Shown: piece after piece, positions 140 through 16,693 of the stretch
Numbering within the stretch: position 1 is the first letter of the stretch
Layout of the letters: each line of letters opens with the position of its first letter
Assembly: GCA_013297885.1 (NCBI GenBank)
Contig: JAAFIR010000007.1
Location: forward strand, 1 to 64,000
DNA from: Leptospirales bacterium
Lineage (GTDB): Bacteria; Spirochaetota; Leptospiria; Leptospirales; Leptospiraceae
DNA length: 64,000 bases
Direction: 5' to 3'
The notes under the pieces: generated by a model
Databases searched by the model: none
What the model was told of the DNA's origin: nothing
Seen by the model: only the letters and a program-made list of their open reading frames with translations
Position numbers and translations under genes: made by a program

Positions 140-2020
140 CTAATTTTTGATTTGGGACGTTTTTATTTTTTGGTCTAATTTTTCTTTAATTTGAGTGTAC
201 AATTTTGGTTCTATAGCTTCTTTATCTTGAATTGAAATCACAAGAGAATATTCTTCTTCTTCTTTACCTACCTTGTCTCCCCAAGGAAAATCATTTCTAG
301 TAACTATGACAAAAAACTTATCTCTTGATTTTTTTGGTTGTTGAAATTGCCAAGTAGAAGATTGGTTCGTACCTTTTGATCGTAATTTAGAGCTAATATT
401 TCTATTCGAAGAATATTCCTTAATATTTTCATATTCATCAGCTGTAGTAGCTTTATTAAACATTTTTGTTACCTCCTCTAACGAGGTTGATTTTACAAAC
501 CTAAAAGAAATTCTTGAAGCTCTATAACTGATTCTTGTGTTTCTTGCTGAAGAATTATAAGATAAAGAAACAGTTATTTGTCTTTTTCTTTTTTTTCCGT
601 CAAAAAAACTTTCTGGTATTGGAATTTCATAAAAATGATTTTTGTTATTTTGAATTTTGTCGCTAGAAAACAAAATGACTGATTCTTCACCAGATTTGAA
701 TAAAAAATCTTCATCAACTTTTCCGTAACCTTTCATTTTCACTAAATCATTTTTATCCGTTATATTATGAATTTTTACAAGACTAGAATCAGCTGAAGCA
801 ATTAATAATGCTTTGATGAATGTAATCGAATAGCCCTTCGAATTCGATAAAATTCGACCAGCTAAATGAGTTATATAGGGAGCAGAAAAACTCGTACCGA
901 TATCTTCAGAGAAAACATTATTTCCCACAAATTTGGAATTCAAACTGATTACACCCAATTCATTTTTATTCAAATTTTTTGATCTAAGGTCTATACTTAA
1001 ATTTCCACCATGTGCAATAAGTTCTGGTTTTATACCTCCACCAATTCCAAAGCCAATCCTTGAAAATGGTGAAATGGAATTAACTGGGGCTAAAGGTTTG
1101 TATGTCGGGTCTTTAGGATAACTTTTTGCTACTTTCCCCATATCATATTTTGTATAACTGCCAACAGTTAAGGAATTTATCGAATTTGCTGGTTCAAGTA
1201 TGTTGGAATTTTCTAAAAGATAATTTGGGTATTTTCTTTTGGCATCAAGTTTACTTCGAATATCATTAAGACTCAAATTTCCAGCAGAGATAATAAAAAG
1301 GACTCCGAGTTCATGCGAAAGATTATCAAGTGTTAAAGTTAAAGAACTTACCTTTCCACCTTGATAAGGTTTATCGATGAATGCAATTGAAAAATTAAAT
1401 ATTTTACAATTATATTCACCGTAAAATTCCTTAACTGCTTTTTCTATTTTATTTTCCAGAAAAGTTTCCGACATTGATTGCTTGTCTTCTAAAACTTTTC
1501 CACTCAAAATATAAAAATAAGGAATAAATTTCTTACTTTTAATTGAATCCTCAATATCACCATACAGTGCTATCCCTGAAACAGCCGTACCATGTCCAGT
1601 CTCATCATTGCTATTTCCATCTTCATTATACGATCTGGTGTCCCCTATAGAAGTTCTTAATAAAGGATGATTTGTACTAATACCAGAATCCAAAACGGCA
1701 ATACTTGGAGCATCTTTTTTTAAAGAATCAGGATTTGGAATTTCTGAAATTGAAGTCTCAAGTAATGAGTAATCCAAAGAATATCTAGGAGGTAAATCAA
1801 CAGTCCTTACATCTCTATAATTTAGAATTTTCTCATATTGTTTTTTTGAACATCGTATTCTTATAAGGATAATGTATGAATTATTCACAAAATCTAGAAT
1901 ATTAAAATTTTCATTTTCAGAAAAATTTCTAAATGCTTCAATCATAGTGGTTCGAATATTATTATTTTCTTGAGGCCAAAGTTCTACATCTAAAATAAAA
2001 TCTTTAGATTGAGGAATCAC
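140..2020 (-). CDS. S8 subtilisin-like serine protease, catalytic part (frameshifted gene)
   Basis: This carries the peptidase S8 domain of a cytoplasmic subtilase. The whole catalytic set is visible: Asp111 in VLDSG, His143 in GHGTA, oxyanion Asn248 in SAGN and Ser377 in GTSFSAP. There is no signal peptide. The listed GTG start is only the first usable one; the same frame stays open upstream to about 2190 with no ATG, GTG or TTG, and the extra residues (LTEQALEEFEKRI and on) look like protein. The preceding 98-codon frame supplies the missing N-terminus, so both are almost certainly one gene of about 775 codons, broken at the A5 run 2172-2176. A partner AAA+ ATPase lies directly upstream. 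Subtilase and AAA pairs recur in accessory regions; the substrate is unknown. Confidence 0.85.
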   Translation of the reverse strand: MIPQSKDFILDVELWPQENNNIRTTMIEAFRNFSENENFNILDFVNNSYIILIRIRCSKKQYEKILNYRDVRTVDLPPRYSLDYSLLETSISEIPNPDSLKKDAPSIAVLDSGISTNHPLLRTSIGDTRSYNEDGNSNDETGHGTAVSGIALYGDIEDSIKSKKFIPYFYILSGKVLEDKQSMSETFLENKIEKAVKEFYGEYNCKIFNFSIAFIDKPYQGGKVSSLTLTLDNLSHELGVLFIISAGNLSLNDIRSKLDAKRKYPNYLLENSNILEPANSINSLTVGSYTKYDMGKVAKSYPKDPTYKPLAPVNSISPFSRIGFGIGGGIKPELIAHGGNLSIDLRSKNLNKNELGVISLNSKFVGNNVFSEDIGTSFSAPYITHLAGRILSNSKGYSITFIKALLIASADSSLVKIHNITDKNDLVKMKGYGKVDEDFLFKSGEESVILFSSDKIQNNKNHFYEIPIPESFFDGKKRKRQITVSLSYNSSARNTRISYRASRISFRFVKSTSLEEVTKMFNKATTADEYENIKEYSSNRNISSKLRSKGTNQSSTWQFQQPKKSRDKFFVIVTRNDFPWGDKVGKEEEEYSLVISIQDKEAIEPKLYTQIKEKLDQKIKTSQIKN

Positions 2021-2169
2021 CTCATTTTTAATTCCATTTCCAATTCTATCTTCGGCCTTCCAAAGACCGATTGACTGAGTTGCTTCTATTAATTCTTTTC
2101 TGGTAACAATTCCATTATTTTTTCCAAAACTAGTTATACGTTTTTCAAACTCTTCTAAAGCCTGTTCGG

Positions 2170-2466
2170 TTAAAAATAATAATACAATAGATATTTATCT
2201 TCTTGCGATACTAACTCTATGCCTGTAATGGATTCAAATGCTGTAGGATCAAAATTATCTTCTACATTTAGTTTAATTAAGCGTCTATCATCAAAACCTT
2301 TTATTTCCTCTGATTCTTCTTTTAAAGTTTGAATATCAGATCTAAGGCTATTCGAGAGCTTTAAAGGATCAGCAGAAAATTGTTTTCCTCCAAATCCCTT
2401 TTTTGGTCTTCGATCTGTGAAATTTGTTTCTCTATTAAATTTAATATGTTCATAAATTGCTGGCAT
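2170..2466 (-). CDS. N-terminal part of the S8 subtilase (frameshifted gene)
   Basis: The 98 residues begin MPAIYEHIKFNRET, a type of opening seen in Y4bN-like S8 peptidases that pair with AAA ATPases (family knowledge from memory). Its ATG overlaps the stop of the AAA ATPase by one base (TAATG), so the two are translationally coupled. It stops at 2170 in the sequence TAT TTT TAA. Adding one T to the T5 run (minus strand) joins it in frame to the catalytic part. A minus-one ribosomal slip of Phe-tRNA on the same run would give the same protein. The choice between sequencing error, mutation and programmed frameshift is open. Confidence 0.7.
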   Translation of the reverse strand: MPAIYEHIKFNRETNFTDRRPKKGFGGKQFSADPLKLSNSLRSDIQTLKEESEEIKGFDDRRLIKLNVEDNFDPTAFESITGIELVSQEDKYLLYYYF

Positions 2467-3461
2467 TATTTTTTAAGCTTCGTATTTTTGATTCTCGATT
2501 TTTCTTTTGAAATAGAATTTAAAATATCTTGATCTTCTAAAAATTCTCTACTTTCCAAAATCATATTTTTAATCGCCCTACGGATAATTCTTTCTATATC
2601 GGCATGGCTCATTTGTTTGAATAAAATTGCTAAACTAGGAATTTCTTTTTTTAAATTTCGACGAACTCCTCTTAACTTCATTTCGAGAAGTTTCATAATT
2701 TGATTATTATCAGGTAAAGAGAAATATAACACTTCTTCAAATCTTCGCCAAACAGCACTGTCTAAATTTTTTTCATGATTGGTTGCCGCAATTAAAATAC
2801 TATTTCCATTATAGGTATCAAACATTTGCAATAGTGCGTTTACAACTCTTTTGATTTCTCCATGTTCAGAAGTATCGGATCTTTCTCTTCCAATCGAATC
2901 AAACTCATCAAATAAAACAACCATCCTATTTTTTTGAATATAATCAAAAATTTTTCTTAAGTTCGATGATGTTTCTCCTAAGAATGAAGAAACGATTGAA
3001 TCAATTCTAATCACTACAAATGGTAATTCCAGTTCATAAGCAATTGCTTCGGCAGAAATTGTTTTACCGGAACCGGGAGGACCATAAAATAAAATTTTAT
3101 CAATCGATTTGAGTCCATAAGATTTTAAAACTTCTGATTTTCTATTTTCTAATAATATTCTTTCTATTTGGAAAACATTTTCAGATGAAAGCACAATATC
3201 ATTGATTGACCTTGTGGGTGTATAAACCGTTAAGAGAGGTAAACTTTTTTCTTTGTCAGTTGGTATATCTTCTTTTAATAAATTAAACGAAATCACCTTA
3301 GAAACTTTTCCATAAAGAATTTCTTCTAAATCATTAGCCAAAAGATGATGTTGCTTTTCTCTTTCTTCTTGTATAATTTCAACTGCTACTTTTTCGAAAG
3401 AATCATTATCACCGGACTTTGCAAATTGAAAAATTTGTCTCAAATGTTTTGAACTAGCCAT
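2466..3461 (-). CDS. AAA+ ATPase partner of the S8 protease
   Basis: This is a 331-residue cytoplasmic AAA+ protein of the VCP/SpoVK-like class. Walker A GPPGSGKT is at 127-134, Walker B VVLFDEFD at 181-188, a sensor-1 ILIAATN near 221 and an arginine-rich RRFEE after it; a helical C-terminal lid follows. The start ATG has a strong ribosome site (AGGGGAG, about 5 bases away). It is the first gene of a two-gene unit with the protease, joined by a TAATG overlap. By analogy with other AAA-protease pairs it probably remodels or delivers substrates, or controls the protease; that role is inferred. It could be a defence or proteotoxic-stress module. Confidence 0.88.
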   Translation of the reverse strand: MASSKHLRQIFQFAKSGDNDSFEKVAVEIIQEEREKQHHLLANDLEEILYGKVSKVISFNLLKEDIPTDKEKSLPLLTVYTPTRSINDIVLSSENVFQIERILLENRKSEVLKSYGLKSIDKILFYGPPGSGKTISAEAIAYELELPFVVIRIDSIVSSFLGETSSNLRKIFDYIQKNRMVVLFDEFDSIGRERSDTSEHGEIKRVVNALLQMFDTYNGNSILIAATNHEKNLDSAVWRRFEEVLYFSLPDNNQIMKLLEMKLRGVRRNLKKEIPSLAILFKQMSHADIERIIRRAIKNMILESREFLEDQDILNSISKEKSRIKNTKLKK

Positions 3462-3608: not shown

Positions 3609-3848
3609 TCACAACTCCAACACCGGCAGCGCATCCACAATCTTTCTAGTCTCCAAACTCACAGTGATCACACGTTGAAAAAGTTCTAGTGGGTAGGCTG
3701 GATTATTTTCTACTTCGATGCCCCAAGCGTTTGCGTCGTTTTCGATCCCAGAATCTTTATCGATTTTAATACAGTAGCGTTCTACAATCCAGTCGAGTGC
3801 AGATTTTCCGTTTACGATATATTTGAAAGCATTGAGTAAAATATTTCT
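3609..3848 (-). pseudogene. C-terminal remnant of a type ISP restriction enzyme (copy 2)
   Basis: The frame encodes AFKYIVNGKSALDWIVERY, then KIDKDSGIENDANAW and LFQRVITVSLETRKIV, which is the conserved C-terminal tail of the large DEAD/DEAH-helicase plus methyltransferase type ISP enzymes (about 1500-1600 residues). Only about 80 residues remain. The frame continues upstream to an ATG at 3929, but that part is encoded by a dispersed repeat (3849-3984), so the repeat sits at the break. It is about two thirds identical to the tail at 5840-6317, so it comes from a different ISP gene and not from a simple duplication. Confidence 0.75.
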
Positions 3849-5839: not shown

Positions 5840-6317
5840 TCACAACCCCAACCTCGGAATCTCACCCACTAACTTCACCGTTTCCAAACTCACTGCTATC
5901 ACTCTTTGAAAAAGCTCCAAGATATACTTTGGATTATTCTCTGTTTCGAGTGCATAGTCGTTTGCGTCATTTGTGATACCAGAATCTTTGTCTGTAGTTA
6001 CCGCATAACGCTCCATTATCCATTCAAGAGCAGGTTTTCCGTTTACTATATATTTGTATGCTTCTAGTGGAATTTCAGATAGAGTGATAAACTCGTTGTA
6101 AACAACTCTAGACTTATCTTCTTTTTTTGCAAATTTCATTTTACGAACATAATAGTGGTCAGGCTTCGTGACTTTGCCGTGTTCAATTTTAACTGGATAC
6201 AATTTTGCAGATTCATAGTTCAGATGAATTTTTGCAAGTTTGCGACCAATATCGGATAACGTCCAAAAATCGCTAACCGATACAGCACGAGGAATGCGAG
6301 GCAGCTCTTTAGAAAGA
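5840..6317 (-). pseudogene. C-terminal remnant of a type ISP restriction enzyme (copy 1)
   Basis: The last 120 residues form an open frame from a TTG at 6202, but the same frame is open back to about 6325 and encodes LSKELPRIPRAVSVSDFW, GRKLAKIHLNYE and then YKYIVNGKPALEWIMERY, the standard tail of type ISP restriction-methylation enzymes. Nothing of the helicase or methyltransferase core is left. The remnant begins at the very end of the zinc-ribbon helicase gene, and darT starts three bases after its stop. It is somewhat less AT-rich than its surroundings. An N-terminal ISP piece lies at 11979-12104, so the gene looks hollowed out. Confidence 0.8.
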
Positions 6318-6326
6318 TTGTCTTTA

Positions 6327-9300
6327 TTAAATTAGAAACTTTAAACCGGTTATATATATGAATTGTTTGGTTTGTTTGAAAGTAAGTTTATCAAAACCAA
6401 TTTTAAGAAGAATTTCTTTTAGTTCGTCTTCTCTATTCTCCCATTTTTGAAAAGGCTCTGCAATTATAACAACACCCATAATTTTTAGAATACGATATGC
6501 CTCATTAAGATAATCCTTATAATTTGATCCCATCAATGAAAGTGAAAAAACGGCAATGTCAATTGAGTTGTTTTCAAGGGGTAACTTAGAAATATCACAA
6601 GCTTTTACATTTGTATTAATCGCAACATGATCAAAAGCTAAAACTTTATTTGAAATTTCTTTTCGAAGTAAATCCTCTCCACAACCTAAATCTGCAACAA
6701 TCATTTCTTTACGAGTAATCATCTTACCGATTTCTACATAAGGAATTTCTTTCCAATCTTTTCTTCGTTCTTTGTAAAGTGTATGGTAATAGTACCAGTC
6801 TTCTGGATTTTCTTTTAGTTTTGTGTTAGTTGTCTTAGAATTCGAGATACTCCAAATACGATTAAGTTCTGAGAAATCTCCTAACGTTCTAGAAAGTTGT
6901 TCAACTATTTCAGGACGGAGTGGAAAAATTAAATCCTTTCTCTGGATTATAAAGATTTTGCCGTCTCCAATTCTTTCTTTCCAATCTCGGAGTGCCTCTT
7001 GCGATTTTTTAAAAAGTGTATCTAGAGACGGAATTTTTTTTGAAGGAACGACTCCATCAATGGCAGCATCAGCAAGAGTTTTTTTATTTCTTATTAGATG
7101 AATTCTCTGCATATCCCAAGACCATTCTTTTTCTTCTAATTGAATATAGACTTGAGGAATTAGAATTTCTACTTCCCCGAACTTAGAGCCTTGCCTATAG
7201 ATTCTTCCTTTTAACTGCGTATATTCTGAATCAGTCCAAGGGAGCGAAAGTATAATCATACGATTACATTTTTCTTGGAGTCCATCAACTCCAGTTCCAA
7301 TGGGACGTGAACCAATGAGTATATCGATTTCTCCGTTCAGGAATTTGTTCTTAGCTAATTCTCTTTCTTCTAAAGATTCCTCACCAGTATAAGTTCCAAA
7401 TTTGAAACCGCAGGATTTTACAAAGTCGATAATCGGTTCAATCATTCCAGTTGTATAATGAGTATATAAAATTACTCCTGATTGAAGATAATGATGAATT
7501 GCAGTCAATTTTTTAGGAAGTAAAATTTGTTCTGCTTTAATGTAATTGGTATTTGAAATAGAAAGTAATTCTTCAAGTAAATCTTTTCCATCTAATTTTA
7601 ACTTTGGAGTATTCTCACCTGTTAATTCTTTTATTTGAATTTCATATTTCGGAATATATCTTAATCCATTTAGACTTAGATGTTTAAAGGCTTCAAGCGC
7701 ATTCGCCAAGGTTTTCATTGTGTTAAAGTCTTTGTAGTCCTTGCCAGTCACCATTTCCAATAGAGACTTTGCTTCTGTGAGATTATTGATTACAGGAGTC
7801 GCACTCATTCCAAGAACATAAAGATTTTTATTCTCAGCAGCTCGACCGATAAGTCTCTTGATAGTTCCTCTACGAATACTTTCTTGTTTTTCTGTTCGCT
7901 GTTTTGCATTGTGAATTTCATCAATTGCAATAAAATCAATTTGGTTGTTATCCGTTAGGTCTTGAAATAGTTCTTCTGAATATCCTTGTTGGAATTTATC
8001 ATAATTTAGAATTAGATAATTCTTATTTTTACGCATAAACTTTTGTCCTGATTTATATTGAGTAAATACCTTACTATCAGGATAGGCTTGCAAAATATTT
8101 TTACTCAATTGTTCAATTGTAGAATTTAGACCTATGAGAAGTGTAAGCCTTGCATCAACACTTCGACTACTCAATATAAACGAAAGAGTTTTCCCCGCAC
8201 CCGTTCCCGACCAGTTGCCATAACGTTTATGCTTTAAGAGTCTAAAGACTGTTAACTTCTGCATGAGATTCGGCACATACGGAAATGAATATCCGTCAGG
8301 TGGTGAATACTTCAATACTTCGTTGTATTCATCAAAGAAATATTTTTGCAAAAGAGTGAAATTTATGCCACCGGTTTCTGTCTTAAACTTTTTAACAGAA
8401 AAATCTTTATTCAAAACTTGATTCCAAATCTTTCTCAGTTTATATTGAATCAAAAACTCAATCGTCTCCGCATCACAGGATGAAACCAAGTCATGGTCTA
8501 ACACATGCAGATCTTCATTAGTATCGTTTAGCGAGAGTAATTTCTTTTTTTTGTTTTCTGCTTCGGCAGATTCATAACTTTCTTCATTAGCATTTATTTC
8601 AATATCTTCTGTTTCTACTTCGTCTTGGTTCCAGTCTTCTTCTTGTATTTCCTGATTCGATGATAGCTCTTCGAATTCTATGCTTTCAGTTTCTGTTTCT
8701 AATCTTTCTTTAAGTGCTTTTAGAGTATTTTCTTTGTTATCCTCATCCGTGAAGACTAAGTCTCTGAATGTTTCAGGTAGTCTGCCTTGGTTGATTATCA
8801 TTTGTAACTCGACCGCATCCATTTGTAGAAGGTCTTGGTTTTCTATGGAGTGGAGGAATTCTAGGATTTTTGGTTTAGACCAGCCGAGGTTGCAAGTAGG
8901 GCAGCCTGTTCCACGTTTATGACTATCAGGTATTTGCAAAAACCCACCATGAATATTGCAAATAATTTTAACCGGAGTTCTTGCGTTTAAATATATTAAT
9001 TCCGAATAATCGTATTTATCTCCATGTATTTTTCTAAAGTCTTTTATGACTTCATCTTTGGTTAATAACATTTTACCAAAACACTTAGAACATCCTTGTC
9101 CTGATTTATGATTTCCAGGTGTTTGTAAGAATTCTCCATGCTCCGGACAGATAATTATTACAACTTCTAAATTATTTGCATAGACGACTTTAGAATAATC
9201 GTATTTGTCCCCGTGAACTTTTTTGAAATCATGAATAACTTGTTCGAATGAGAGTTTTATATTTCCACTGCATACAGGACAGCCAGCACCTTTTTTATGA

Positions 9301-10010
9301 GCATAAGGCAACTGTTCAAACTTGCCATGTTTTTTACATATTATGATTACTTTCGAATCAGTATTCTCATACTCTACTTTTGAATAATCATATTTCTTTC
9401 CATGTACTTTTCTAAAATCTTTAATCACTTCGTCAGTAGTTAATTTTACTCTTCCTCCGCATTTAGCACAGCCTTTTCCACTTTTATGTTCACTAGGAGT
9501 CTGTGAAAATTTACCATGTTCCGGACAAATGATAGTAACGGGTGTCATTCCTTTAATATAATTTACTTTGGAATAATCGTATTTATTCCCATGAACTTTT
9601 TTAAATTCCAGAATAATTTCTTCTGTGGTTAATCCACGACCCGCACATTTTGGACAACCAACACCACTCCTATGATGACTAACTCTTTGTAAAAAATCTC
9701 CATGCTCTCGACAAATAATTAGAATAGGCTTTGTTGTGTTAATATAGCTTGCTTTCGAATAATCGTATTTATCTCCATGAATTTTCTTGAAGTCTTGAAT
9801 AATTTCTTCTGTAGAAAATCCTCGACCAACACATTTAGGACAACCCACCCCGCTTTTATGCTTATTTGGTGTTAAAAGAAACTCACCATGTCTTTTACAA
9901 ATAATTTCAACTTTAGTTATAGCGTTTTCATACTCAACTTTCGAATAATCATACTTATTCAAGTGAACTTTTTTGAAATCTTTTATTACATCTTGGGTGG
10001 TTAGTTTCAT
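6327..10010 (-). CDS. SNF2-type helicase with six zinc ribbons and a C-terminal methyltransferase
   Basis: This 1227-residue protein has three parts. Residues 1-375 hold six tandem repeats of about 62 residues with consensus KVHGDKYDYSKV, then IIC-x2-HGxF and GxGCPxC, a DUF723-like zinc ribbon found in phage and endonuclease proteins. An acidic linker follows (about 430-500). A superfamily 2 helicase core spans about 580-1000: Walker A GTGAGKT near 602, DEIH near 697, GMSATP, and a helicase C part ending in LKGRIYRQGSKFGE. The last 150 residues are a class I methyltransferase (ADLGCGED near 1107, then VFSLSLMGSN) like Rrp8. Its start is one base from the KAP NTPase stop, so the two form an operon. 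A defence role is inferred from context; the substrate is unknown. Confidence 0.85.
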   Translation of the reverse strand: MKLTTQDVIKDFKKVHLNKYDYSKVEYENAITKVEIICKRHGEFLLTPNKHKSGVGCPKCVGRGFSTEEIIQDFKKIHGDKYDYSKASYINTTKPILIICREHGDFLQRVSHHRSGVGCPKCAGRGLTTEEIILEFKKVHGNKYDYSKVNYIKGMTPVTIICPEHGKFSQTPSEHKSGKGCAKCGGRVKLTTDEVIKDFRKVHGKKYDYSKVEYENTDSKVIIICKKHGKFEQLPYAHKKGAGCPVCSGNIKLSFEQVIHDFKKVHGDKYDYSKVVYANNLEVVIIICPEHGEFLQTPGNHKSGQGCSKCFGKMLLTKDEVIKDFRKIHGDKYDYSELIYLNARTPVKIICNIHGGFLQIPDSHKRGTGCPTCNLGWSKPKILEFLHSIENQDLLQMDAVELQMIINQGRLPETFRDLVFTDEDNKENTLKALKERLETETESIEFEELSSNQEIQEEDWNQDEVETEDIEINANEESYESAEAENKKKKLLSLNDTNEDLHVLDHDLVSSCDAETIEFLIQYKLRKIWNQVLNKDFSVKKFKTETGGINFTLLQKYFFDEYNEVLKYSPPDGYSFPYVPNLMQKLTVFRLLKHKRYGNWSGTGAGKTLSFILSSRSVDARLTLLIGLNSTIEQLSKNILQAYPDSKVFTQYKSGQKFMRKNKNYLILNYDKFQQGYSEELFQDLTDNNQIDFIAIDEIHNAKQRTEKQESIRRGTIKRLIGRAAENKNLYVLGMSATPVINNLTEAKSLLEMVTGKDYKDFNTMKTLANALEAFKHLSLNGLRYIPKYEIQIKELTGENTPKLKLDGKDLLEELLSISNTNYIKAEQILLPKKLTAIHHYLQSGVILYTHYTTGMIEPIIDFVKSCGFKFGTYTGEESLEERELAKNKFLNGEIDILIGSRPIGTGVDGLQEKCNRMIILSLPWTDSEYTQLKGRIYRQGSKFGEVEILIPQVYIQLEEKEWSWDMQRIHLIRNKKTLADAAIDGVVPSKKIPSLDTLFKKSQEALRDWKERIGDGKIFIIQRKDLIFPLRPEIVEQLSRTLGDFSELNRIWSISNSKTTNTKLKENPEDWYYYHTLYKERRKDWKEIPYVEIGKMITRKEMIVADLGCGEDLLRKEISNKVLAFDHVAINTNVKACDISKLPLENNSIDIAVFSLSLMGSNYKDYLNEAYRILKIMGVVIIAEPFQKWENREDELKEILLKIGFDKLTFKQTKQFIYITGLKFLI

Positions 10011-10011
10011 A

Positions 10012-11982
10012 TTATCGAGAAATCATTTCTTGCTTGTTCAAAGTTAGATTCGATTTATAAGATTGAAGTTTATCAATGCCATCGGTTAAAGCTATTATAA
10101 ATTGATTTAAACTTAAATTCTGAATTGGTTTATCCGAATTACCTTCAATTTTTAATTCGATGCCTTGTTTTAAATCCCGTAGAAATTCTAATTCAGTAAG
10201 AAGTTGACTTGCATTTCCATTATATCTATTTTTAAATAAATAGGATAAATACTGAATTTGTGGATTATCCAACTCAGTTATTACATTCAGGAATTCACTT
10301 GCATTGAAATAAGTAAAAATTGGAAATTCAGCATAAGTGTAATTCGGATTGTGATAGATTTCTAATTTAAACTGCTCAGGATTCTTTTCAATTAAGAATC
10401 CGAGTAATTTTTTTGCTTCTTCTTGATAGAAAGGCTTAGATTTTTTTTTAATTTGATATCTTAAGAATTTAAAGATTTTAAGAAAATCAGAATTATCCAT
10501 TTGAAAACGAAGACCATAAAATCCACATGAGCTATTTGCTAGCCAATTTGGATCAGATAGATAACCCTTTTTACCCATTTCTAGAATGTAATATTTCATT
10601 TCTTTCATGACTTGCTCTTTATTTTTCTTTCCTGGAAAAAGATTATTCTCTAGTAAATATAAATACGTTTTTAAAATTTCCAAAAATATTTCTGGATTTT
10701 TTATTTCATGTGCTTTAATTTCATTTTCAATAATCGTAAACAGCTTTAAAAAGTCTTCATCTGAAATATCTCTGAAGCTTTGTAGCTTTTTCCAAGCAGG
10801 GGTATTTTCTTTAAAGAAATACTCAGACTGAAGTAATTCCTTTGTTATCGCTTCCTTATTCGGAATACCATTTACAAAAAAATAAACCCAATTTTCCACT
10901 GAAATAATTAAACTATTTGAACTAATAAATGAGACACCGTATTTTCCAAAAACGGTATAAGTATTTTCTTCATTTGATACAGTTTTGTTTTTTTGTTCAT
11001 GAAAATTATCTATAAAATCCTTTTCCAGATTCCTTAATTTTTCTGGATTAAATCCTGCTTTAATTTCAAAGGAAAATATAAAAAATATTTGTATCAATTG
11101 TTGGATTAGATCATTCTTGCCCTTTACCTTATCATCTAAATGATTCCAAAAAATTCGCCAATCATAGAAAGTTTGCATTAGGATTCGAAGATTATCTTTT
11201 CCAAATGTGGTATATACTTCTTTTATTATATGAATATTATTTCTTATAACCGTATCTGGGAAACTGCCATTCTTCTCAGTATACTTTTTGATAAATGATT
11301 CTAGTGCTGAGTCAATATCTCCCTGAATACGAAAGGATTTACCAATTAATTTTTCTTTTATAATTTTGTATTTTGATTGATTCTGATTATTCTCGATCTT
11401 TGCTAAATGAGCATTATCCGCATTATTTTTCTGTTCAAAATCTTTTTGTAATTTCTCCGATTCATCAATTTCATCTTCATTAGCAATTATAATAACTCTT
11501 AATTTATTTTGCTCTACGTATTTATTTATATATCCAAGAGTTTCAGAAGGCGATAGCAAACATCTCTCTAGATCATCAAAGATAAGAGTTTTTGATACTA
11601 TATTATCGAATAAATCAATGACGTTTACTTTTGGTATAGAAGCTTCAATTTTAGTTCCATCAAACATTCCTTCCTTGATATCGAAACCAAATTTGCTGAT
11701 TCCTGAAAGTAAAACAGATGTTAATAGTTTCATTCCTTTAGATGCCATAACCGGATGTAAAACAGAAAAAATTTCAGAATCTATTTGCTCTGTCGATTTT
11801 AACCCATTCAATGATACATAGAGAAAAGAATCTTTTGTTTTTTCTTGCTTTTCTTCACGATAGTTTTCTATAAAATGAGTTTTTCCGCAACCCCAATTCC
11901 CAGTTAACATTACGGCAAAACCTGGCTCAATGTGGCTCACATAATCATCTAGAAACTGTTTTATATTTTCGTTACGTTTCAT
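10012..11982 (-). CDS. KAP family P-loop NTPase
   Basis: The 656-residue protein begins with a KAP-type NTPase domain: Walker A GNWGCGKT at 28-35 and Walker B LIFDDLER at 133-140, with the DDLER form typical of KAP proteins. The remaining 400 residues are helical with no motif that I recognise. No transmembrane pair is obvious in the NTPase, unlike some eukaryotic KAP proteins. The ATG overlaps the stop of a 41-residue ISP N-terminal remnant (ATGA), and the helicase gene follows after one base, so the three are cotranscribed. KAP NTPases occur in several phage-defence loci; that function here is inference. Confidence 0.85.
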   Translation of the reverse strand: MKRNENIKQFLDDYVSHIEPGFAVMLTGNWGCGKTHFIENYREEKQEKTKDSFLYVSLNGLKSTEQIDSEIFSVLHPVMASKGMKLLTSVLLSGISKFGFDIKEGMFDGTKIEASIPKVNVIDLFDNIVSKTLIFDDLERCLLSPSETLGYINKYVEQNKLRVIIIANEDEIDESEKLQKDFEQKNNADNAHLAKIENNQNQSKYKIIKEKLIGKSFRIQGDIDSALESFIKKYTEKNGSFPDTVIRNNIHIIKEVYTTFGKDNLRILMQTFYDWRIFWNHLDDKVKGKNDLIQQLIQIFFIFSFEIKAGFNPEKLRNLEKDFIDNFHEQKNKTVSNEENTYTVFGKYGVSFISSNSLIISVENWVYFFVNGIPNKEAITKELLQSEYFFKENTPAWKKLQSFRDISDEDFLKLFTIIENEIKAHEIKNPEIFLEILKTYLYLLENNLFPGKKNKEQVMKEMKYYILEMGKKGYLSDPNWLANSSCGFYGLRFQMDNSDFLKIFKFLRYQIKKKSKPFYQEEAKKLLGFLIEKNPEQFKLEIYHNPNYTYAEFPIFTYFNASEFLNVITELDNPQIQYLSYLFKNRYNGNASQLLTELEFLRDLKQGIELKIEGNSDKPIQNLSLNQFIIALTDGIDKLQSYKSNLTLNKQEMISR

Positions 11983-12104
11983 ATTTTATTTATCTCATTC
12001 TGTAAAAATATTTGGACAATTTCTTCAAAATATTCTCCTTTTTCTCTTTCTGATTTTGCAGTACTTCTAAATACATCAAAAACAACGTCTAGCTCTTTAC
12101 TCAT
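11979..12104 (-). pseudogene. N-terminal remnant of a type ISP restriction enzyme, now a 41-residue leader
   Basis: The short frame begins MSKELDVVFDVFRST and has AKSEREKGEYFEEIVQIFL, which resembles the start of type ISP enzymes (the SEREKGxYFE stretch of the nuclease domain). It keeps a good ribosome site (AAAGGTG) and ends in an ATGA overlap with the KAP gene, so it now works as a translated leader for the KAP-helicase pair. It is too short to be an enzyme. Together with the ISP tail at 5840-6317 it frames the two-gene cassette. The homology call rests on about 20 residues. Confidence 0.6.
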
Positions 12105-12228
12105 ATAACACCTTTATTCAATTCTAATTTATCATTCTAATTTTCTGCAAGACAAAATAGAGTAAATTTTGAATTAAAAATTTTGAATGTAAAATATTTT
12201 TTTTATGAATTTTTCATGTATTGCTTCA

Positions 12229-12542
12229 CTAGACTGTAAATTTAATTATATTTTTTGGTTCATTTTGGTAAGCTTTCCAGATATCAAATTTTAACTGCAT
12301 ATTTAACCAACTTTCAGGAGAAGTATTTGCAGCTTTAGCAATTCTTATTGCTGTAGCTGGAGTCACAGAACATTTTCCATGTACTAATTCAGATAAAGCT
12401 TTTCTTGATATTCCTAAATTAATGCTAGCAGCAGTTATGCTAAGTTCAAGAGGTTTGATTTATCTTCAAATAATACTTCACCGGAATGAGTAGGTTTTCT
12501 TCTAATCAGAAATTCTTCTTTAATGATAATCTTTATAATCAA
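12229..12542 (-). pseudogene. higA: HigA-type antitoxin, frameshifted
   Basis: From a TTG at 12542 the frame reads FLIRRKPTHSGEVLFEDKS, then another frame continues KPLELSITAASINLGISRK and ALSELVHGKCSVTPATAIR to a stop at 12229. Together this is a complete XRE-family HigA antitoxin. The frames switch at the T3 run 12454-12456; one more base restores the gene. It overlaps the higB tail. Confidence 0.75.
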
Positions 12543-15531: not shown

Positions 15532-15776
15532 TCAGTAATAATGTCTTTTGGATCTTCTTGCATAAATCTGATTGGTTTAGCAGGAATGATGGTAGATACA
15601 GCGTGTTTATAAATTAATTGTTGTTTTGTTTCATTTTCAATGATGATGGTAAAATTATCAAAGCTGTAAACTTTTCCTTTTAATGGAACTCCATTGAGTA
15701 AATAAACTGTTAGCTCAATTTTTTCTTTTCGTGCTGTGTTCAAAATATGGTCTTGAATATTATTTTTAGCTGACAT
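15528..15776 (-). CDS. hfq: RNA chaperone Hfq
   Basis: The 82-residue protein has both Sm motifs: Sm1 across [20 protein letters not shown] and Sm2 with the diagnostic YKHAVSTI. Hfq forms a hexamer that pairs small RNAs with mRNAs. The gene overlaps miaA by 11 bases and manC by 4, an arrangement (miaA-hfq) that is widely conserved in bacteria. Length is normal for a spirochaete Hfq with a short tail. Confidence 0.96.
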
Positions 15777-16693
15777 GTCTTAACCGCTTCTCTATTTTTT
15801 TTATTTCTGCAAGTGCAGAATTCCAATCTAACTTTTTTAAGAGAGTTACTTTTTTAAACCAAGTAATTTGCTTTTTAGCATAATTTCTATGGGATTGGGA
15901 GAACTCTTCTAAAAACACTTCCATAGTTTTTTTGCCGTTCATATAATCAAGTGCAAAATTAAATCCCAGAGATTTAAAAGCAGCCGAGGATTCTCCGTAT
16001 TTTTCATAAATAAATTTTGCTTCTTCCAAAAAACCTGTCTCTATCATTTTTTTACATCTAGAATTTATTTTTTTGTATAATTCTTTTCTATCCAAATCTA
16101 AAAAAATTCCTATCAATTCACCTTGAAATTTTTCTAAAAAAGAATCCACTCTTTCATTTTGTATTTCAGACCAAAGTTTTCCACTTCCACAAATTTCCAA
16201 AGCTCTAGAAATTCTATATTCATCATTTTCAGAAATTAATTTAGTAGCTTCAAAATCTTTTTCTTTTAACAAATTCCATTTTTGGGTTTGGTTTAAATTT
16301 TTTATACTATTTTTTGTATCTTCGTTAATTTCTGTTACCGGAAACATTCCATATAGAAATGCTTTTAAATAAAAACCTGTTCCAGAAGTTAAAATAGGAA
16401 TTTTATTTTTTAAAAAAATTTCATTTATGGACTGAAAAGCTAATTTTGCATAAATGCTTGCATTAATTTTTTCTTCAGGATCAAAAATTTCTGTTAAATG
16501 ATGTATGAGATTTTTTTTTAATTCAGGAGTGGCTTGAGCAGAAGCTATTGGAATATTTTTATAAACTTGCCTAGAATCAAATGAAATGATTTCAAATAGG
16601 TTTGAATCTAGGTGTTCACAAATTTCAGTTTTACCACTGCCTGTTGGACCAGTAAGAAGGATAATAGTTTTTTCTATTCTCTTTCTTCTCCAT
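15766..16693 (-). CDS. miaA: tRNA dimethylallyltransferase MiaA (start region frameshifted)
   Basis: MiaA adds a dimethylallyl group to A37 of tRNAs that read UNN codons. Reading back from the stop, the frame is open through the whole enzyme: the P-loop [14 protein letters not shown], then [29 protein letters not shown] and the C-terminal [13 protein letters not shown]. No ATG, GTG or TTG lies between the upstream in-frame TGA and the P-loop. A well-placed ATG at 16693 with a GAGG site reads MEKKENRK in another frame, and removing one A (or adding two) from the A6 run at 16668-16673 joins it perfectly. I therefore give the gene as 15766-16693 with one frameshift; an internal ATG at 16347 would lose the P-loop. 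Confidence 0.85.

Follow-up and report, generated by a model that had tools for sequence, protein, structure and literature searches.

The window, that is, the whole 64,000-nucleotide stretch of DNA analysed here, carries on its reverse strand two adjacent genes (Table 1). One encodes a KAP-family NTPase; the other, referred to below as the helicase, encodes a protein in which a zinc-ribbon array, a Snf2-class motor and an Rrp8-type methyltransferase follow each other in a single chain. Only one base separates the KAP stop codon (10014-10012) from the ATG of the helicase (10010-10008). The original prediction had placed two open reading frames here with this spacing, and both were verified; its domain calls likewise agree with the profile scores and motifs given below.

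Table 1. Features of the locus, with their positions in the window
Feature	Position	Strand	Basis
Second type ISP 3' fragment (residues 1570-1647), between IetA and DarG	3612..3845	-	
Type ISP restriction-modification 3' end, displaced	5843..6325	-	residues 1484-1645, 61% identity
Helicase ORF: array, Snf2 motor, Rrp8-type methyltransferase, 1227 aa	6327..10010	-	ORF and profile searches
Rrp8-type (Methyltransf_8) methyltransferase (aa 1046-1218)	6357..6875	-	E 3.8e-36; 2zfu match
SF2 motor, Snf2 class (aa 568-1002)	7005..8309	-	profiles; fold match to INO80 ATPase, Z 22.4
Conserved linker (GWSKPKILEFL...MDAVELQMII) and acidic stretch (aa 374-510)	8481..8891	-	alignment, model
Six tandem DUF723-type zinc ribbons (aa 1-373)	8892..10010	-	unit boundaries by CxxHG...CxxC
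KAP-family NTPase, 656 aa, PADLOC candidate PDC-S49	10012..11982	-	profile match, PADLOC, phrog_4740
Type ISP 5' end (residues 11-45)	11994..12101	-	50% identity, local E 4e-5

A split type ISP gene in a defence island

Both genes lie within the remains of a type ISP restriction-modification gene, for which the 1647-aa enzyme of Leptospira biflexa p74 served as reference. The 5' fragment of this gene stops 11 bp short of the KAP start codon, and the C-terminal frame (5849-6322) restarts about 2 bp past the helicase stop. Because the ISP N-terminus precedes KAP and the C-terminus resumes after the helicase stop, the two genes fill the slot of the ISP gene and replace its residues ~46-1483 (about 1,440). 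The match of the 5' fragment is short (35 residues) and finds support in a plasmid search, whose best twelve matches were all annotated type ISP enzymes. The middle of the enzyme is lost, so that the replacement of its interior may have taken more than one step. The second 3' fragment further indicates that two or more type ISP genes have decayed in the island; no other ISP gene parts were found in the 64 kb. The restriction remnants reported earlier correspond to the two 3' fragments, and the 5' fragment had been missed.

The neighbours of the pair are DarT, DarG, IetA and IetS, which together with the ISP pieces bear out the proposed defence-island setting. The island (IetAS, DarTG, ISP pieces, helicase and KAP) adjoins a CheW-nucleotidyl transferase operon, and the CheW side is syntenic within the genus without the island. 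A prophage in the window was considered and rejected, since the flanks consist of host genes (CheW, nucleotidyl transferase, MiaA-type and thiolase).

Several smaller observations concern these surroundings. IetA and IetS (AAA ATPase and subtilase) occupy positions 140-3461 of the reverse strand with a 98-aa ORF in between; another member of the genus, G176, has at a different place a copy of IetA with 82% identity to that of the window. Immediately upstream of the ISP 5' fragment lies a frameshifted relic of a HigA-type antitoxin (12100-12500, reverse strand), whose sequence KPTHSGEVL ... ISRKALSELVHGK ... NMQLKFDIWKA is split over two frames. The MiaA-type IPP transferase ORF (15766-16347, reverse strand, 193 aa) covers profile positions 85-242 only and is possibly N-terminally truncated or split; genus members seem to have the same layout.

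Domains of the helicase and their nearest likenesses

Each of the six ribbons spans 60-63 aa and contains CxxHG and CxxC, and the array is matched by the DUF723 (E 1.6e-13) and DUF4379 (E 1.6e-9) profiles. The earlier suggestion that the ribbons read nucleic acid is supported by the same arrays in phage homing endonucleases of the T5orf172 type, where DUF723, DUF4379 and CapR arrays form the zinc-finger, predicted DNA-binding part (PMC10448857). The motor is recognized by Helicase_C (E 6.9e-13) and ResIII (E 9e-11), and its motifs GTGAGKT (aa 602), DEIH (697), SATP (736) and QLKGRIYRQG (932) are intact, as are DLGCGE (aa 1107) and LSLMGSN (1157) of the methyltransferase. In an alignment of 14 diverse family members, all helicase and methyltransferase motifs are intact.

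For fold comparisons we used a predicted structure of the core (mean pLDDT 79). The motor model matches INO80 (Z 22.4), ISW1 (Z 21.2) and ZorD (Z 19.4), and the methyltransferase model matches human nucleomethylin/RRP8 (2zfu) with Z 22.9 and 2.2 A over 185 aa. The methyltransferase reaches 125.5 bits with the Methyltransf_8 (Rrp8) profile, against a curated cut-off of 27, and by sequence its best solved structure is again 2zfu (E 9e-27; runner-up 0.009). Judged by sequence, motifs and model fold, the domain is of genuine Rrp8 type. No N6-adenine methylase profile was found in the protein, and no nuclease profile over aa 374-1227.

The motor resembles known defence helicases in part. It is similar to DrmD of DISARM (E 8e-9), but reaches 28 bits where the NCBIfam cut-off is 610, and shares the SF2/Snf2 motor fold with ZorD of Zorya. 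No other DISARM or Zorya genes were found at the locus, and Drm models matched none of the nine other window proteins scanned.

A parallel is provided by the dyads of Snf2 motor and adenine methylase found on phages and conjugative elements, a described theme with DarB as its prototype (PMC5512222). As in the window protein, a Snf2-class motor and a methyltransferase are joined in one chain on phages or plasmids, and a DarB-like PHROG matches the window motor (E 4.5e-7); the helicase could accordingly be an antirestriction protein, shielding the DNA of its carrier from restriction at entry. However, in the DarB dyad an EcoKI/TaqI-type methylase lies N-terminal to the motor, with LPD36 and no array, whereas in the window protein DNA-recognition arrays are present, other polyvalent domains are absent, and the motor is followed by a C-terminal methyltransferase of Rrp8 type. 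Since both methylase family and domain order differ, the window protein would be a functional analogue of the dyad and not a member of it, and we consider a DarB-like role unlikely.

The family of the methyltransferase points to another possible substrate. Rrp8 and nucleomethylin place m1A on 25S/28S rRNA (PMC6085284), so that RNA could also be the substrate here, with m1A placed on host or phage rRNA, tRNA or mRNA and the motor remodelling ribonucleoprotein. The domain clearly belongs to the Rrp8 family, and it shares with nucleomethylin both the fold and the N-terminal NP..W..YH lead-in. The eukaryotic proteins, on the other hand, are nucleolar and have neither motor nor array of their own; Snf2-class motors work on double-stranded DNA. 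The arrays, moreover, belong to a type predicted to bind DNA (PMC10448857), and they vary too much to recognize a single conserved RNA. We therefore regard an RNA-directed enzyme as improbable.

A phage-borne family with exchangeable arrays and insertion cassettes

Relatives of the helicase were sought with an alignment of the window, Crinalium and Rhodococcus cores, and the family was found mainly on IMG/VR phage contigs, which are metagenomic. These relatives show 42-61% identity, and most of them are closer than the plasmid members (35-39%). Some of the carrier contigs have a terminase and/or a tail sheath, including one of 362 kb, and several have no such matches. An origin in giant eukaryotic viruses was rejected, as an NCLDV capsid model, searched without a positive control, matched none of 16 contigs. 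The nearest relative belongs to the Leptospiraceae MAG UBA2033. In the tree it falls with the window copy into a fully supported group of nine, of which the remaining seven members are all viral contigs; the tree being unrooted, the direction of transfer between viruses and bacteria is one that we infer.

Throughout the family the core is constant and the N-terminal array varies, consisting of DUF723 units, DUF4379 treble clefs, INT_rpt ('integrase repeat') units or mixtures of these. Between the window and UBA2033 the core is 85% identical, the array units are 50-73% identical each, and the ribbons number six versus four. In some relatives the array is encoded on a separate upstream ORF. On one contig (L041, 2606-9543) the helicase-methyltransferase has no array of its own, and immediately upstream of it lie tandem array-only ORFs with DUF723 and INT_rpt repeats, an arrangement that looks like provision of the array in trans. 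The unusual architecture that had drawn attention to this protein is thus that of an unreported modular family: in a search of the open literature we found no paper on a DUF723-Snf2-methyltransferase protein or on a phage Rrp8.

Among 23 loci the helicase had no conserved neighbour, and homing endonucleases of three classes adjoin it on phage contigs. On four contigs (L038, L040, L046 and L054) the adjoining gene combines an array with a nuclease domain that carries a homing-endonuclease annotation, L053 carries a GIY-YIG gene with NUMOD3, and L052 an HNH/endonuclease VII-like gene; there is no homing endonuclease beside the window copy. Three of the inserts can be compared with relatives that lack the interruption. 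The L038 insert measures 4,899 bp (7287-12185), and three contigs with flanks 97-99% identical (L074-L076) have 13 bp at that place. The L052 insert (5,614 bp) is missing from L096, L097 and L099-L101, and it interrupts a kinase-like gene of 167 aa, of which L094 and L096 have the complete form. The L053 insert (5.6 kb) splits a gene, presumably mnmA from its sequence motifs, that is uninterrupted in L158. In both L038 and L053 the helicase stop codon forms the right edge of the insert, and the displaced sequence of the target gene picks up again there; at the opposite side of the insert the target gene has a restored 3' end. These comparisons between near-identical phages show that the helicase gene is gained or lost as part of an insert, next to homing endonucleases. 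The window has the same right edge, the helicase stop codon.

The helicase thus shares with the free-standing phage homing endonucleases the zinc-finger arrays (CapR, DUF723 or DUF4379), resembles them in its insertion behaviour, and is often adjacent to them; unlike them, it has a motor and a methyltransferase instead of a nuclease domain (PMC10448857). We conclude that it is a member of a previously undescribed family moving between giant viruses of bacteria, beside homing genes.

Paired tiny ribbon-helix-helix genes occur 5' of the homing endonuclease on four contigs (L052 4195-4548, L038 8219-8581, L053 4245-4584 and L040 8925-9272). Their DNA is 95% identical between L038 and L052, despite differing adjoining nuclease and helicase genes. 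They were rejected as a part of the helicase module, as the pair precedes the adjoining nuclease genes.

Mobility of this kind raises the question of whether the gene is passive cargo, hitch-hiking beside homing endonucleases and functionless in the bacterium. The UBA2033 copy has two in-frame stops, and genus member G217 retains only lone C-terminal scraps of the Rrp8-type methyltransferase (L071 6713-7012 and L072 6616-6831, 61-67% identical), which are decayed copies with no helicase alongside; the linkage to nucleases may also reflect how common nucleases are in such phages. Against this, the motifs are all intact in the 14 diverse members, and in the window, as in L038 and L053, the right edge of the insert coincides with the helicase stop codon, and we find a purely passive role quite unlikely.

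The partner gene was assessed in the same manner. The KAP protein matches the KAP_NTPase profile (E 3.7e-19) and, end to end, the PADLOC model PDC-S49 (E 9.7e-149, aa 1-641 of 656), which is listed as a single-gene candidate without a helicase partner. The original prediction saw in KAP and the helicase a two-gene antiphage system, which would imply a KAP sensor or effector and a helicase-methyltransferase nucleic-acid arm co-acquired as a unit. The one-base gap, the defence island and the replacement of the ISP interior by exactly these two ORFs are in line with this proposal. The suggested neighbourhood analysis did recover relatives of the helicase, but none of the 24 further records with a helicase contained KAP, and none of the 11 other KAP loci contained the helicase; in UBA2033 the upstream gene is unrelated. 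Among 392 spirochaete genomes the helicase occurs in three and KAP in five, with both only at the window locus; outside the spirochaetes, partners were looked for on plasmids, phages and viral contigs, and in chromosomes with a single pattern scan. Since in the records searched neither gene accompanies the other gene's relatives, a conserved partnership is not supported and a true two-gene system is very unlikely; KAP and the helicase share one site, and KAP is a defence candidate in its own right, with no obligate partner.

Proposed action and meaning

We favour, with a probability of roughly 60%, the reading that the helicase belongs to a modular phage-cassette family combining an array, a Snf2-class translocase and an Rrp8-type adenine methyltransferase, which here sits with KAP in a gutted ISP gene and has a putative role in conflict. 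The array suggests DNA, the Snf2 class movement along the duplex, and the Rrp8 type adenine; the protein therefore most likely functions as a DNA translocase, addressed by its array, with methylation of adenine as its predicted chemistry and conflicts between mobile elements as its field of use. The array would locate a target on DNA, the motor would track along the duplex or strip bound proteins, and the methyltransferase would modify adenines nearby, with harm to competing elements or benefit to the carrier as the outcome. The gene would be used between mobile elements and retained by bacteria for a time. DNA as the substrate, adenine as the base and a role in conflict are what we infer from these domains and their setting.

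The nature of the mark affects how this is read. If m1A were written, this positively charged, pairing-blocking base would be an attack, and N6 methylation would be a mark. Snf2 motors usually leave the strands unseparated, which fits poorly with methylation of the Watson-Crick face in duplex DNA. Linkage to an AlkB-type m1A eraser was tried as support for m1A and rejected, occurring on only one of 12 carrier contigs. A bolder version, in which a new class of mobile conflict systems pairs a homing endonuclease (or, in bacteria, a different partner, for example KAP) with an array-addressed Snf2 translocase that writes m1A, which blocks Watson-Crick pairing, on selected DNA in place of cutting it, and in which the eukaryotic rRNA methyltransferase Rrp8 has a common ancestor with the phage enzyme, is for now rather unlikely.

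Two further suggestions of the original prediction can be placed in this light. That the methyltransferase marks self is the less obvious reading, because the domain is of the Rrp8 type (m1A on rRNA in eukaryotes) and is no methylase of DNA restriction-modification. For an antiphage function the defence-island setting still speaks, but the gene is mainly phage-borne, in homing-type insertions, and antiphage action would therefore be at best a secondary use.

The array-addressed translocase family described here joins, on phages, modular DNA-binding arrays and a Snf2 motor to a kind of methyltransferase that has so far been known from ribosome biogenesis in eukaryotes, and it gives a clue to where Rrp8 came from. 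At the window locus, a defence island has traded systems inside one gene: the interior of a restriction enzyme was lost, and two new genes stand in its place. Should the methyltransferase act on DNA, this would represent a new way to attack or mark rival genomes.
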